Source: an uncultured Planktomarina sp. (GTDB lineage: Bacteria > Pseudomonadota > Alphaproteobacteria > Rhodobacterales > Rhodobacteraceae). From it: a DNA stretch of 64,000 nt. A program made the position numbers and the translations under genes. The notes beneath the pieces were generated by a model. It had not been told where the DNA came from. It saw only the letters and a program-made list of their open reading frames with translations, and ran no database searches. Location: NCBI GenBank assembly GCA_905181815.1, contig CAJIZA010000001.1, positions 62,001-126,000 of the forward strand. The letters run 5' to 3'. Position 1 is the first letter of the stretch. Each line of letters starts with the position of its first letter. Below are positions 1,497-20,262 of this stretch, piece by piece.

Positions 1497-1578
1497 TCCG
1501 CAGTTTTTGACATCCTGAAATGAAGGGGCGATCCAAATATGGATTGCCCCTTTGACTAAAAACTTTTGGGGATCCGCC

Positions 1579-3003
1579 ATGAAGCGTATACTGATTTCTC
1601 TGATTTTTACCCTATCATTTGTATCGTCGGCTTTTGCGCAAAGCACAGCTGCCCCTGACCGAAACGCAACGGGCGGCGCTCAAACGCTCGAAGATATTAT
1701 GGCCCGGCAACGTGGTGAAGAAGTGGACAATAGCTTTCGCAGTGACGCCACTGGAGACGCTGCTAGGGCTGCAGAAATTTCCAAACAATTGGGTACTTTA
1801 GGTGGGAATTCCGACCCGGAACTGTGGCGTGCACTGCGCTTTGGCTCCGCAGATATCACGGCCTCCAATTCAGGACCGGCTGCAGAAGTTTTGATCCAAG
1901 ATGGTGGCATGAGCTGGCTTAACCTACGCGCAGGCCCATTAATTAAATATGGTGGCGGTCTTCTGCTTTGGGTCATTGGCTTATTAGGACTGTTCTATTT
2001 GATTCGAGGCCGCATCAAAATTGATGGTGAAAAAACTGGACGCAAGATCACGAGGTTTAAGGCAGCTGAGCGATTTTCCCATTGGCTGCTAGCAGGTTCA
2101 TTCTTGCTACTGGGTGCGACTGGGTTGATAACACTTATGGGGCGTAAGTTCCTTATTCCCACGTTTGGACATGAAGCATTTTCTGTGCTGGCAATTGGTT
2201 CAAAATGGATCCACAACAATGTCTCTTGGGCCTTTATAATCGCTCTGGTCTTAATTTTTGTTTTTTGGGTTGTCGACAATATCCCGCATCGTACGGATAT
2301 TAACTGGCTCTTAAAAGGTGGTGGCATATTTTCTCGAGGGCATCCGCCAGCAAAAAAATTCAATGCGGGTCAAAAACTGATTTTCTGGTCTGTGATAGTT
2401 CTGGGTGGTTCCATTTCGGTTTCTGGAATATCGCTGTTGTTTCCGTTCCAATTTGAGATGTTTGCTGCGACTTTTGCCAAGGTAAATGCCATCGGTCTTG
2501 GCACCTATTTGGGTTTTGGCGAGCTGCGTGAGGTTTTGGCGCCCCATGAAGAAATGCAATACGCGCAACTTTGGCATTCGGTTGTCAGCTTTGTGTTGAT
2601 GGCGATAATTCTGGCGCACATTTACATTGGTTCGATGGGAATGGAGGGCGCCTATGACGCCATGGGTTCCGGTGAGGTGGAAGAGCAATGGGCGCGTGAG
2701 CATCACTCTTTGTGGGTTGAAGAAGTTTTGGGTCCGCAAGTACCTCATGCACCTTTATCTACAGATAAAAAGCCCGTGGCAAAGGCAGCTAAGAAATCAG
2801 CTGCAGAACTGGCAAAAGTGGCTGACGCGCCAATAACATTTGCCCCGACTCCCAAAAAGAAATCTAAAACACAATCTGTGAAATTGGCAGAGGTGAAAGC
2901 TAAAAAAGCCGCCGCACCAAAATCGGCCAAGCCTACTGCGACAAAAGCCAACGCTAAAAAAACGACTGCTGCGAAGCCAAAAAAGCCAGCAAGTGAGACA
3001 TAA
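1579..3003 (+). CDS. fdhC: Formate dehydrogenase gamma subunit (cytochrome b556) with Lys/Ala-rich tail
   Basis: A 474-residue protein. The ATG at 1579 is preferred over an in-frame TTG at 1552 because it gives a clean signal peptide (MKRILISLIFTLSFVSSAFA) and has GGGG 8 bases upstream. A linker is followed by a first membrane helix near residue 130 and a four-helix cytochrome b core with heme-ligand histidines (RFSHWLL, FGHEAF, LWHSVV, LAHIYIGSMG). It would pass electrons from formate oxidation to quinone. After the last helix there is an unusual tail of ~90 residues rich in AKK/KKPA repeats, resembling histone H1, which is absent from the E. coli FdnI/FdoI type. It is the third gene of the fdh operon. 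Confidence 0.92.
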   Translation: MKRILISLIFTLSFVSSAFAQSTAAPDRNATGGAQTLEDIMARQRGEEVDNSFRSDATGDAARAAEISKQLGTLGGNSDPELWRALRFGSADITASNSGPAAEVLIQDGGMSWLNLRAGPLIKYGGGLLLWVIGLLGLFYLIRGRIKIDGEKTGRKITRFKAAERFSHWLLAGSFLLLGATGLITLMGRKFLIPTFGHEAFSVLAIGSKWIHNNVSWAFIIALVLIFVFWVVDNIPHRTDINWLLKGGGIFSRGHPPAKKFNAGQKLIFWSVIVLGGSISVSGISLLFPFQFEMFAATFAKVNAIGLGTYLGFGELREVLAPHEEMQYAQLWHSVVSFVLMAIILAHIYIGSMGMEGAYDAMGSGEVEEQWAREHHSLWVEEVLGPQVPHAPLSTDKKPVAKAAKKSAAELAKVADAPITFAPTPKKKSKTQSVKLAEVKAKKAAAPKSAKPTATKANAKKTTAAKPKKPASET

Positions 3004-11825: not shown

Positions 11826-12047
11826 TTAAACGGCGCCCACTAAATTTGGATTTACTGGTGCTGCCTGAGTTTTTTTTGCGTGCGCAGCATCCAACTCGGC
11901 TAATACATTTGCTTTGATTTGTTCGACAAATGTATCACGGGTGTAGCCAACGTCTTCTAACTGGCGATCACTGATGTACTGCAGTGCTTGCATTGCTGCA
12001 GACGCCTGACGGGCTATAATCATCGCTCTAAATAGTCGTTTAAGCAT
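11826..12047 (-). CDS. DUF1127 small protein
   Basis: Start ATG 12047 (MLKRLFRAMI) has AAGGAG 6-7 bases upstream. The 73-residue product has the DUF1127 motif: DRQLEDVGYTRDTF near residue 32, followed by a short helix ELDAAHAKK and tail NPNLVGAV. DUF1127 proteins are small, basic and Arg-rich; in Rhodobacter sphaeroides one (CcaF1) binds RNA and is co-transcribed with the CcsR sRNAs, which carry CU-rich anti-SD loops. Here a similar hairpin with a terminator lies directly upstream on the same strand, which fits that arrangement with the order reversed. A broken paralogue lies at 19318-19558. Confidence 0.8.
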   Translation of the reverse strand: MLKRLFRAMIIARQASAAMQALQYISDRQLEDVGYTRDTFVEQIKANVLAELDAAHAKKTQAAPVNPNLVGAV

Positions 12048-12171
12048 TTTGTTCTCCTTGCTTTTTCTACTTTTAATGTAGTATTTTTTACGCTTAACTT
12101 CATCACACACAGCTGCATTCCCGTTATGCGTTAGACGCATGTCCACGACTATCACCAGCGTCAAACTATGC

Positions 12172-12265
12172 AAAAAAAAGGCGGTGCCAAAAGACACCGC
12201 CAGTAAACACTACAATTTCGGGAGGAAATTTAAGCTAAGTTCTTTTTAGCGCAAAATGCTGCAGC
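12172..12265 (-). ncRNA. Candidate anti-SD-loop sRNA (cuckoo/CcsR-like), copy 1
   Basis: On the minus strand, positions 12230-12214 form AATTTC-CTCCC-GAAATT, a six-pair stem exposing CUCCC, the anti-Shine-Dalgarno core. About 13 bases later comes GGCGGTG-TCTTTTGG-CACCGCC (12201-12180) and eight T, a strong terminator. The whole block is repeated at 19654-19745 with the loop CUCCU and the stem kept. This matches the layout of Rhodobacteraceae cuckoo RNAs near DUF1127 genes. The 5' end is not defined. Confidence 0.65.
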
Positions 12266-12424
12266 GCAACAATAAACAAAATTGCATTTCCGGCATGCTT
12301 CAGTCGCATACCTCTGCGCTTAAATTATATGCAAAAAAGAAATTATTTGCCCAACAACACGACTAAACAATGCTAGCTCAGCCAAAGATTTTTAACGGAG
12401 TTAATTGCTGAATATTGCTTTTGC

Positions 12425-12730
12425 AGCTGCTGTCAGACGAATGAGAACTTGCATTGGGTTACTTGTGCAGTCTGAAACTATGCGCTACCAAAATGACGCC
12501 TCTCTGCGAGAGCAGTGGTGCGGTTTGTTGAAATTGAGGTATGAGTAGAGGTGGAGCTTCTGCAGCCTCAGAGCCAACATAAGCTCATACCCAGCCCCCT
12601 GTTGCGCCTTCAGCGGACCATAGCGGCCTAAGCATGCAAACAGCAGCGTAACTGCTTGCGAATCAAAAAGTTTCCATCGATGCGCAGGCGTGTGGACGCG
12701 TGGCTAAAATAATGGATGTACGAACATTGG
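12425..12730. repeat. Dispersed repeat R, copy A
   Basis: A block starting CTGTCAGACGAATGAGAAC and including GCGAGAGCAGTGG, TGAGTAGAGGTGG, CAGAGCCAAC and GATGCGCAGGCGTGT. Related blocks lie at 13308-13400 (left part only), 19862-20282 and 24588-24914 (right part). The last runs into the 3' end of tRNA-Asn, so R seems to be the sequence downstream of that tRNA, copied several times. No reading frame is conserved across copies. Confidence 0.65.
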
Positions 12731-12861: not shown

Positions 12862-13284
12862 ATTATCCCAGAATTAGCGCAGCTCATTTATTCATCCCAG
12901 CCGTTTGGCTATGATAGCACAACATTACAAACCATCTTAAATGATGCAAGAAGATGCAACATGCGAGATGGTATTTCAGGTGCGCTTGTTTGTAGACACG
13001 ACATTTATGTCCAATTACTCGAAGGTACTTTAGAGGCAGTTCATGCTGCTTACATGCGAATTAGTCGTGACGACCGTCATGTTGGAGTTAAGAAGCTCGT
13101 TAGTCGGCCTATTACTGAACGTTTTTTTGGGGAGTGGGCTATGCTTCATGACCCAGCAATATCCTTAATTTGGAACCAACAACAAATCAAAGATGGTATT
13201 CTTGATCTAATACCACAAACAGAAATTATTGACATGTTCCAATCCATTTCCAGTCGATCTAGATTTGAAAATTTTGACCATTAA
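12862..13284 (+). CDS. BLUF-domain blue-light photoreceptor, probable AUU start
   Basis: A single-domain BLUF protein of 140 residues. The FAD-binding elements are present: Tyr in AQLIYSSQ near residue 9, ARRCNMRDGISGAL with the Asn near 32, and Gln in YVQLLEG near 52, then RHVGVKKLVSRPITERFFGE and WAML. The only ATG in frame (12961) would delete the first 33 residues with the essential Tyr and Asn. Upstream there is no ATG, GTG or TTG back to the stop at 12811. TAGGAG at 12851-12856 sits 5 bases before ATT 12862, so translation from AUU is likely; an ATG-to-ATT mutation that silenced the gene is the alternative. Confidence 0.75.
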   Translation: MIPELAQLIYSSQPFGYDSTTLQTILNDARRCNMRDGISGALVCRHDIYVQLLEGTLEAVHAAYMRISRDDRHVGVKKLVSRPITERFFGEWAMLHDPAISLIWNQQQIKDGILDLIPQTEIIDMFQSISSRSRFENFDH

Positions 13285-13952
13285 ATTTTGGTTTGGATGT
13301 TATTAAGGGTGCTGTCAGACGAATGAGAACTCGCACTGCGTTACTCGTGCAGCATGAATCTATTCGCTCATCAATTGACGCCACTCAGTGAGAGCCGCGT
13401 CACCTAATGTAGCCAATTTCTTGTAAACAACGTCAATAGAGTCTTTAAATGGGGTGAGAAAGCATATCTTGAGATCAGGGTATTCTTTGGCACCATCAAC
13501 AAGACTCCATGTAGCTCCTGTGGTCTTTCCTGAGCCTTTCGTCATCGGTAAGTAGATTGGCCCAACCTCAAGTAGGTTATCATCAGCTATTGACGTAATC
13601 GCACCTGTTGTAAGATGAGCCGAGAGAACCTGCCAATAGCTCAAATACGATGTGTTATGAGGCTACGCCTCACGCCGTTTAATTATGGCTTTGGGAAACA
13701 ATCATAATTTAGGCGGTACTATCGTCATTCATGTTATCCCGTAACCATTTTGCATCTGTTACCACCACAGTAGCTACCTATCCCATTGAATAACAGAAGT
13801 TAAAAACCCCAATGCTATGATTTTTGTTCCCACGAGTAGATAGTACCTGTGATGTGACCTGTTAGCTTGTGATTTATTACCAGTGGCTTAGTGTATGTGC
13901 ATCTCCGTGGGGTTTAATTTCTATTGGGGGGAGTCCATAACCTCTGAATTAG
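13285..13952. other. Gap with repeat copy B and an ORF fragment
   Basis: Positions 13308-13400 match the left part of repeat R (CTGTCAGACGAATGAGAAC... TTGACGCCACTCA). A minus-strand 94-codon frame (13360-13644) contains a Walker-A-like TKGSGKTTG and KICFLTPFKDSIDVVYKKL, but its last residues (TEWRQLMSE) come from repeat R, so it is a fusion of a fragment with repeat sequence. I do not recognise the fragment. From 13680 to 13950 I see nothing. Confidence 0.4.
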
Positions 13953-19317: not shown

Positions 19318-19558
19318 TTACACGGCGCCTACTAAATTTGGGTTCGTTGATACTGCCTGAGCTTTTTCTGCGTGTGCAGCATCTAATTCAGATTCAACCA
19401 TCGCTATGATACTTTCGACAAATTTATTACGGCCAAAACTTATTTCTTTCAAATGGCTGTCTGTAAGATACAGTAGAGTCTTTGCGGCAGCTGACGCCTG
19501 ACACTACCGTTCTGAATAGTTGTTTGAGTATTTTAGTTAACTTGCTATTTTTTTCCAT
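19318..19558 (-). pseudogene. DUF1127 pseudogene
   Basis: The family ATG is changed to ATA (ILKQLFRTV instead of MLKRLFRAM), although an upstream ATG (19558, MEKNSK) stays in frame. A small deletion near 19500 shifts the frame, after which the DUF1127 sequence continues: LYLTDSHLKEISFGRNKFVE and ELDAAHAEKAQAV, ending NPNLVGAV exactly like the intact gene at 11826-12047. The identical C-terminus shows recent common origin. Confidence 0.7.
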
Positions 19559-19653: not shown

Positions 19654-19745
19654 GTAAAAAGGCGGTGCCAAAAGACACCGCCAGTAAACACTACAATTTC
19701 AGGAGGAAATTTAAGCTACGCCCTGTTTAGCTCAAAATGCTGCAA
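19654..19745 (-). ncRNA. Candidate anti-SD-loop sRNA (cuckoo/CcsR-like), copy 2
   Basis: Minus strand AATTTC-CTCCT-GAAATT at 19711-19695 and the terminator GGCGGTG-TCTTTTGG-CACCGCC (19682-19661) with five T. It is nearly identical to 12172-12265; the one loop change (CUCCC to CUCCU) still pairs with the AGGAG Shine-Dalgarno core. The DUF1127 gene downstream is broken here, yet the RNA structure is preserved. Confidence 0.65.
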
Positions 19746-19861
19746 CGCAACAATAAACAAGATCGTATGTAAGAAAAAAATTATTTGCCCAACAATATAA
19801 CTAAACAATGTTAGCTCAGCCAAGGATGTTGAGCAGAGTTAAATGCTGCATATCGTTTTTG

Positions 19862-20262
19862 CAGCTGCTGTCAGACGAATGCGAACTCGCGTCGGATTGC
19901 TGGTGCAGCCTGAATCTATGCGCTCATCAATTGACGCCACTCAGCGAGAGCAGTGGCACGGTTTGTCTTGAAATTGAGGCGTGAGTAGAGGTGGTTCTTC
20001 TGTGGCGTCAGAGCCAACCTAACCCCACACCCAGCACCCGTTGCAACCCTGGCGGACCCAGGTGCGGCCTCCGCAAACAAACATCTGTGTAATGGCGCGC
20101 CAAAACAAACCAATGACATCGATGCGCAGGCGTGTGCGCGCCTGGTGGAATTAGATTCACAAATCAAGAATCCGATAGCGCTAATGTACGTTGCTTAACG
20201 CGCATCTGTCTGGCTGGGATATAAAAGCACCCCGCAAAATTCGCTAAGTTTCTGATCTAAAG
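19862..20262. repeat. Dispersed repeat R, copy C
   Basis: Full-length copy of repeat R. Its left part matches 12425-12730; its right part (GCCAAAACAAACCAATGACA, GATGCGCAGGCGTGT, AATGTACGTTG, ACGCGCATCTGTCTGGCTG) matches 24588-24894 next to tRNA-Asn. It ends in a decayed form of the tRNA-Asn terminator (AAAAGCACC...). Confidence 0.7.

Follow-up and report, generated by a model that had tools for sequence, protein, structure and literature searches.

Does the short hairpin that lies ahead of a DUF1127 gene on the minus strand of an uncultured Planktomarina genome belong to a known class of small RNA, to the mRNA of the gene beside it, or to a regulon that the two share? The hairpin lies within a stretch of 64,000 nucleotides, which was analysed as a whole and is referred to here as the window. 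The initial annotation described a minus-strand hairpin with the loop CUCCC, followed by a strong terminator and placed directly upstream of the DUF1127 gene, and suggested that the unit could be a new variant of the CcsR/cuckoo RNAs. Coordinates, folding and simulation confirmed the arrangement (Table 1), and the layout of the locus bears out that the RNA comes first and the DUF1127 gene second, and that the RNA carries a single hairpin.

The hairpin, its terminator and the neighbouring gene

On the minus strand, the elements of the locus follow one another in the order box, -10-like element CTAAAA, CTCCC hairpin, terminator, second box and DUF1127 gene. Hairpin and terminator recur once more in the window; the two copies are part of a segmental duplication, in which the RNA part is 91% identical between copies and the flank upstream of the RNA 83%.

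Table 1. Coordinates of the features of the locus, of its second copy in the window and of the RNA that follows the LsrB-like gene (window positions unless a locus is named)
Feature	Position	Strand	Remarks
LsrB/VtlR-type box of the RNA, GCATGCCGGAAAT	12286..12298	-	74 bases 5' of the loop
Putative -10-like element of the RNA, CTAAAA	12244..12249	-	36 bases 3' of the RNA box; poor consensus match
Predicted small RNA, ~65 nt	12172..12238	-	5' end predicted from the -10-like element
Anti-Shine-Dalgarno hairpin	12209..12235	-	inner and outer stems as below; loop CTCCC 12224-12220
Inner stem, AATTTC / GAAATT	12230-12225 / 12219-12214	-	
Outer stem, GCT with AGT	12235-12233 / 12211-12209	-	present in the minimum-energy fold
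Intrinsic terminator, 9-pair stem	12172..12201	-	stem 12201-12180; eight T 12179-12172
Second box, GCATAACGGGAAT	12117..12129	-	82 bases 5' of the DUF1127 start codon
Divergent DUF1127 gene, 73 aa	11826..12047	-	directly downstream of the RNA
Copy 2 of hairpin and terminator, loop CTCCT	19661..19711	-	no recognisable box
Degraded DUF1127 copy that follows copy 2	19318..19531	-	start codon ATA; reading frame disrupted
SorX/SorY-like anti-Shine-Dalgarno RNA with its own LsrB-type box	L161:1340-1484 (G000:C1)	-	directly after the lsrB-like gene

The 66-nt stretch that comprises the hairpin and terminator folds at -23.7 kcal/mol (z -6.3), a value that none of 200 shuffles reached; the terminator supplies most of this stability, and the anti-Shine-Dalgarno (anti-SD) part alone gave z -2.2, with 3 of 200 shuffles as low. 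The window has two instances of a six-pair hairpin with the loop CTCC[CT] and a terminator behind it, and 100 simulated windows had none; the hairpin without a terminator has an expectation of 0.6. When five anti-SD stretches were folded alone, that of the window was equalled in stability by 3 of 200 shuffles and the other four by 17 to 121, three of the five being no stabler than their shuffles. RNAalifold, run unprompted, predicted the terminator only and not the anti-SD hairpin.

The protein encoded downstream scored 16.8 bits against DUF1127 (PF06568), below the Pfam cut-off of 23.3, and NCBIfam assigned no family to it. Of its 21 homologues, five reach E <= 0.01 against DUF1127, the best at 3.6e-7, and the scan listed no further family for any of them; by these comparisons, the gene product is a divergent DUF1127 protein. 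Homologues at E <= 0.01 were found in 12 of 20 genomes of the genus (the window's own included) and in one of 41 others. Among studied members of the family, the Agrobacterium DUF1127 proteins are reported to bind PhoR (PMC12501420). The mRNA of the neighbouring DUF1127 gene was also considered as a special target of the RNA and rejected: the ribosome sites of DUF1127 genes pair with the RNA at a mean of -6.3 kcal/mol, little better than the -5.9 kcal/mol of other genes, whose start sites were chosen by a crude rule. At two further loci (L061 and L050), the strand opposite another DUF1127 gene carries TTTCCTCG/TTTCCCCC followed by terminator-like sequence, a stretch that is possibly a further small RNA.

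Copies in the genus and comparison with the cuckoo RNAs

A covariance model built from ten copies and searched against 20 genomes of the genus recovered 22 RNA copies in 13 of them. The seven genomes without a match to the model (G009, G010, G012, G013, G015, G018 and G019) include three that are more than 90% complete. One of the seven, G013, harbors at L106 (~1500-1610, minus strand) an RNA with two anti-SD stretches, one of them in the hairpin CTCTTAC-CCCTCCC-GTAAGAG. Across the family, the RNA model R2 matched in five of 198 genomes, two of the genus and three, with weak matches, outside it (L158-L160).

The neighbours downstream of the 22 copies fall into three groups: a DUF1127 gene or its remnant (ten copies), hisB (six copies) and other surroundings (six copies). 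The hisB neighbour was named by NCBIfam at L119; L120, L130, L134 and L135 share the protein start of L119, and L121 shares its FFDHM stretch. L123 was tried as a further DUF1127-linked copy and rejected, its match to a loose expression being a chance QASA. The strain IMCC1909 also carries copies of the DUF1127 type. The hisB-linked copy looks damaged in G000, the window's genome, and in G001, both of which carry DUF1127-linked RNA copies (loop CTTCC and a shortened T-run in L135, a broken stem in L130). An undamaged hisB-linked copy is kept in G011, G002 and G006, as well as in G003, a genome with three DUF1127-linked copies. It is possible, as far as these sequences tell, that DUF1127-linked copies are replacing the hisB-linked one in the lineage of the window.

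A hairpin loop with CCUCCUCCC is a feature of cuckoo RNAs, and this sequence has no occurrence on either strand of the 64,000-nt window. Rfam returned no match for the locus at the gathering score, and its output held no cuckoo row there, though Rfam may lack such a model. The locus has in common with CcsR/cuckoo and CcaF1 a C/U-rich anti-SD motif and a DUF1127 neighbour. In the CcsR system, however, the gene is described as coming first, with four RNAs derived from one RpoHI/RpoHII-driven transcript (PMC10253847), whereas the window, as read from its sequence, has the RNA first, one hairpin, a terminator between RNA and gene, separate boxes and apparently two promoters. Since RNA and gene each have a box of their own and a terminator stands between them, one shared precursor is unlikely. 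The suggestion of the initial annotation thus survived in part: a conserved anti-SD hairpin with its terminator stood, and membership in the cuckoo/CcsR family was rejected on the features tested, the locus lacking CCUCCUCCC, having one hairpin and its own promoter-like region, and having its RNA next to a DUF1127 gene in only ten of 22 copies. The same features make it unlikely that the locus is a true cuckoo/CcsR-type unit in rearranged form, in which the RNA comes first and the RNA-binding DUF1127 protein encoded next to it carries out its maturation, even though CcaF1 is reported to bind RNA and to be involved in the maturation of CcsR in R. sphaeroides (PMC10253847) and UUUCCUCCC of the window RNA agrees with CCUCCUCCC at seven of nine letters.

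A shared box and the conservation of the hairpin

One 13-base box, GCATNNCGGNAAT, which the initial annotation does not mention, precedes both the RNA and the DUF1127 gene in the window. The genome has 22 exact occurrences of it and four of the reversed pattern; six of the 22 are followed by an anti-SD RNA or a DUF1127 gene, and the other 16 are not, many of them lying inside reading frames. With at most two mismatches, the box was present in the upstream segment of 20 of the 22 RNA copies (1.9 in shuffles), and in 19 of the 22 its position relative to the loop is -74 or -72. Only weak forms of the box stand upstream of the RNA in L121 and L122, and none in copy 2 of the window. With at most one mismatch, the box stands 78-82 bases before the start in 21 of 21 DUF1127 genes (0.05 in shuffles), a count that excludes L001, L002, L051 and L060; by eye, box-like letters are present upstream in L001 and L002 and none in L060, which is copy 2 of the window. 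As the box pattern was read off the same sequences, these counts owe their weight to the fixed spacing and to the controls. Thirty-six bases past the box, most RNAs have CTAAAA-like letters and several genes TATAAT-like letters, the latter being frequent among the DUF1127 genes of relatives. The VtlR box has been published as GCAT-N3-TG-N3-T (PMC7486931), and for Brucella it is given as CAATGCAGCCATGCA (PMC12595884). Both boxes of the window agree with the published VtlR box at GCAT, G9 and T13, and have G at position 8, where the published box has T.

These counts bear on a reading in which the hairpin and terminator form the 5' leader of the DUF1127 mRNA and act as a transcription attenuator, the protein being made by read-through. 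The terminator does sit between the upstream box and the gene, and a DUF1127 gene of Sinorhizobium is reported to be controlled by attenuation, but the Sinorhizobium case, as described, involves a translated uORF, and the sole candidate intrinsic terminator was ruled out there (PMC12218461). In addition, DUF1127 genes keep the box at its 78-82 bases before the ATG also where no such RNA is nearby, and for 12 of the 22 RNA copies the 700 bases downstream contain no DUF1127 gene (for L126, among these 12, the sequence extends only 186 bases). Boxes without the RNA and RNA copies without the gene led to the rejection of a leader or attenuator as the main reading, and we regard it as improbable.

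The initial annotation had named the loss of hairpin pairing in close relatives as the outcome that would speak against its proposal; covariation and flank exchange among the copies indicate that pairing is largely kept. The first ten, close copies are too alike to show any two-sided change. In the alignment of all 22, 92.4% of the cells are paired (85.4% in the anti-SD helix). Two-sided changes affect 10 of 18 pairs, a number reached by 4 of 500 shuffles, and 36 cells, against 11.9 in shuffles (0 of 500 with as many), in an alignment that was fitted to the structure and is biased towards it, and with related sequences, which can exceed shuffles. Four of the two-sided pairs belong to the anti-SD helix, and compensatory two-sided changes occur in both the anti-SD and the terminator stems. 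When flanks were exchanged among eight divergent copies, the native combination scored -4.14 against a mean of -2.1, and 117 of 40320 permutations were as good; with swapped flanks at least 8 letters apart, the loop was still kept in 134 of 200 cases. The five-base motif lies in the loop in 20 of the 22 native folds, the exceptions being L129 (shifted by one base) and L130 (broken). That the structure merely ends a transcript from upstream, or that it is a repeat in decay with window copies alike through segmental duplication, is very improbable: both window copies do lie in the duplicated segment, and copy 2 is boxless and followed by a broken gene, but in other genomes the copies at hisB and at further loci retain the hairpin, the spacing, mostly the box, and compensatory changes. 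The locus very probably represents a small anti-SD RNA that is real and conserved.

An LsrB-like regulator and its candidate RNAs

The genome of the window contains nine LysR stretches. One of them, at G000:C1:263467-264399 and the only one of the nine compared with the PDB, matched 9HH1, the structure of LsrB from A. tumefaciens (PMC11975290), at E 1.1e-75, and 50 of its 66 N-terminal residues are identical to LsrB. Among the 25 families listed by NCBIfam for this protein, none passed the cut-off. LsrB has been called unique to Rhizobiales (PMC11975290); matches to the LsrB-like gene at E <= 1e-50 were obtained in 49 of 96 alphaproteobacteria sampled, and 58 of 61 Rhodobacteraceae genomes contain such a gene, with one match each. 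In Rhizobiales, lsrB is in an operon with trxB (PMC11975290). A trxB (thioredoxin-reductase) signature, which like that of LsrB was a regular expression of our own, was located nearby in 25 of 30 inspected alphaproteobacterial loci and was absent from L161 and L162. In the window's genome, trxB is at C1:847315, apart from the LsrB-like gene at C1:263467, and by eye no LysR gene was seen within 1.5 kb of trxB in L143 and L145 of the genus.

Directly 3' of the LsrB-like gene in the window's genome, a box (GCATAGCGGCTTT), the stretch CCTCCCTGTTGGACTT and a terminator follow (Table 1, last row). This RNA scored 43.0 bits against the SorX model, with a cut-off of 46.6, and six of 14 family loci scanned with Rfam pass that cut-off. 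The family sample comprised 31 loci, namely the best 30 of 58 Rhodobacteraceae matches, the own locus included, and L162; 26 of them could be parsed, among which L161, L162, L202 and L210 come from genomes examined earlier. CCTCCC was present within 260 bases downstream of the LsrB-like gene in all 26 parsed loci (from the best 30 of 58 and L162), and a box with at most one mismatch to the looser GCATNNCGGNNNT in 23 of them, where a rough chance estimate is fewer than one of the 26 loci and the reversed motif was found in none. The terminator script found a terminator in 23 of the 26 and missed a visible one in L161. Four of the five unparsed loci carry CCTCCCTGTTGGA, one of them with a box by the exact expression; L211 carries none. 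The RNA model R2 matched these SorX-like loci too weakly to decide on homology, with E <= 1 in 12 of 26 and a best value of 0.0044.

The plan of the window RNA resembles those of several known RNAs and coincides with none of them. SorX (RF02784) and SorY (RF02651) of Rhodobacter likewise have an anti-SD CCUCCC followed by a terminator; the window RNA, by contrast, presents CUCCC within a closed hairpin and lacks the GUUGGACU stretch, and no SorX or SorY row appeared up to E 10 for window positions 12000-12500. SorX and CcsR are described as stress-related RNAs of R. sphaeroides (PMC8625941). The mmgR/suhB RNAs (RF00519) share with the window RNA UUUCCUCCC upstream of a terminator and a similar length, but the window RNA scored 18.7 bits against this model, far below the cut-off of 41, and in the members read by eye CUCCC follows the hairpin, whereas in the window it is the loop. 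NfeR1 (alpha-r14) also carries its anti-SD motif in hairpins, but has three of them, each reported with CCUCCUCCC (PMC10746234), against the single hairpin of the window RNA. AbcR1 and AbcR2 (alpha-r15) of Rhizobiales have in common with it an anti-SD motif in a hairpin loop and a similar box. They differ in that, for Sinorhizobium, two anti-SD motifs are reported, with CUCCUCCC in the 5' hairpin (PMC8844928), against one CUCCC loop here; the Rfam output for the locus held no alpha-r15 row. AbcR1 is reported to be driven by LsrB in Sinorhizobium (PMC8844928) and by VtlR in Agrobacterium (PMC7486931), and the main VtlR targets described in Brucella are AbcR2 and three DUF1127 proteins (PMC12595884).

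The reading that we favour, and hold to be somewhat more probable than all others taken together, is that RNA and DUF1127 gene belong to one LsrB-like regulon and have separate promoters, the RNA being transcribed independently and the pair co-regulated rather than co-transcribed. The window RNA probably belongs to an LsrB-like regulon with several anti-SD RNAs, which drives DUF1127 as well. In the proposed mechanism, an LsrB/VtlR-like LysR regulator would bind the box at 12298-12286 and activate the promoter of the RNA, and transcription of the ~65-nt RNA would end in the terminator, at 12172. Kept open by a short stem, the CUCCC loop would then pair with purine-rich Shine-Dalgarno sequences of putative target mRNAs. 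Such pairing may lower the translation of the targets, by analogy with AbcR1/2 of Sinorhizobium, where mutations of the anti-SD motifs are reported to have shown the covering of Shine-Dalgarno sequences for two targets (PMC8844928). Through the second box and a separate promoter, the same LsrB-like regulator would lead to expression of the DUF1127 protein.

A broader proposal is offered more tentatively, as one that we hold to be a little less probable than even: LsrB/VtlR may be an ancient alphaproteobacterial master regulator with an anti-SD RNA and a DUF1127 protein as its core output, for which AbcR, SorX/SorY and the Planktomarina family would be interchangeable RNA outputs, copied from locus to locus together with the box, the DUF1127-linked copies replacing an older hisB-linked one in the window's lineage. 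In the literature searched, VtlR/LsrB with AbcR and DUF1127 in rhizobia, and SorX, CcsR and CcaF1 in Rhodobacter, were found in separate papers; no paper was found that joins DUF1127, LysR and Roseobacter, or that treats an anti-Shine-Dalgarno sRNA in Rhodobacteraceae. An RNA and a DUF1127 gene that both appear to be switched by one regulator may link systems that have been studied separately in rhizobia and purple bacteria. If the proposed binding holds, the regulon would extend past Rhizobiales, a candidate regulator would be at hand for SorX-like RNAs, and it would become testable why DUF1127 accompanies anti-SD RNAs, through a shared regulator or a shared transcript.

Two other features were seen around the locus. 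It is adjoined by a gene with a BLUF blue-light sensor domain (window 12961-13284, plus strand), and a 105-base repeat is present in three copies in the window (12417-12521, 13299-13403 and 19855-19959), two of which have, by eye, a similar protein end, EWRQLMS, in minus-strand frames.
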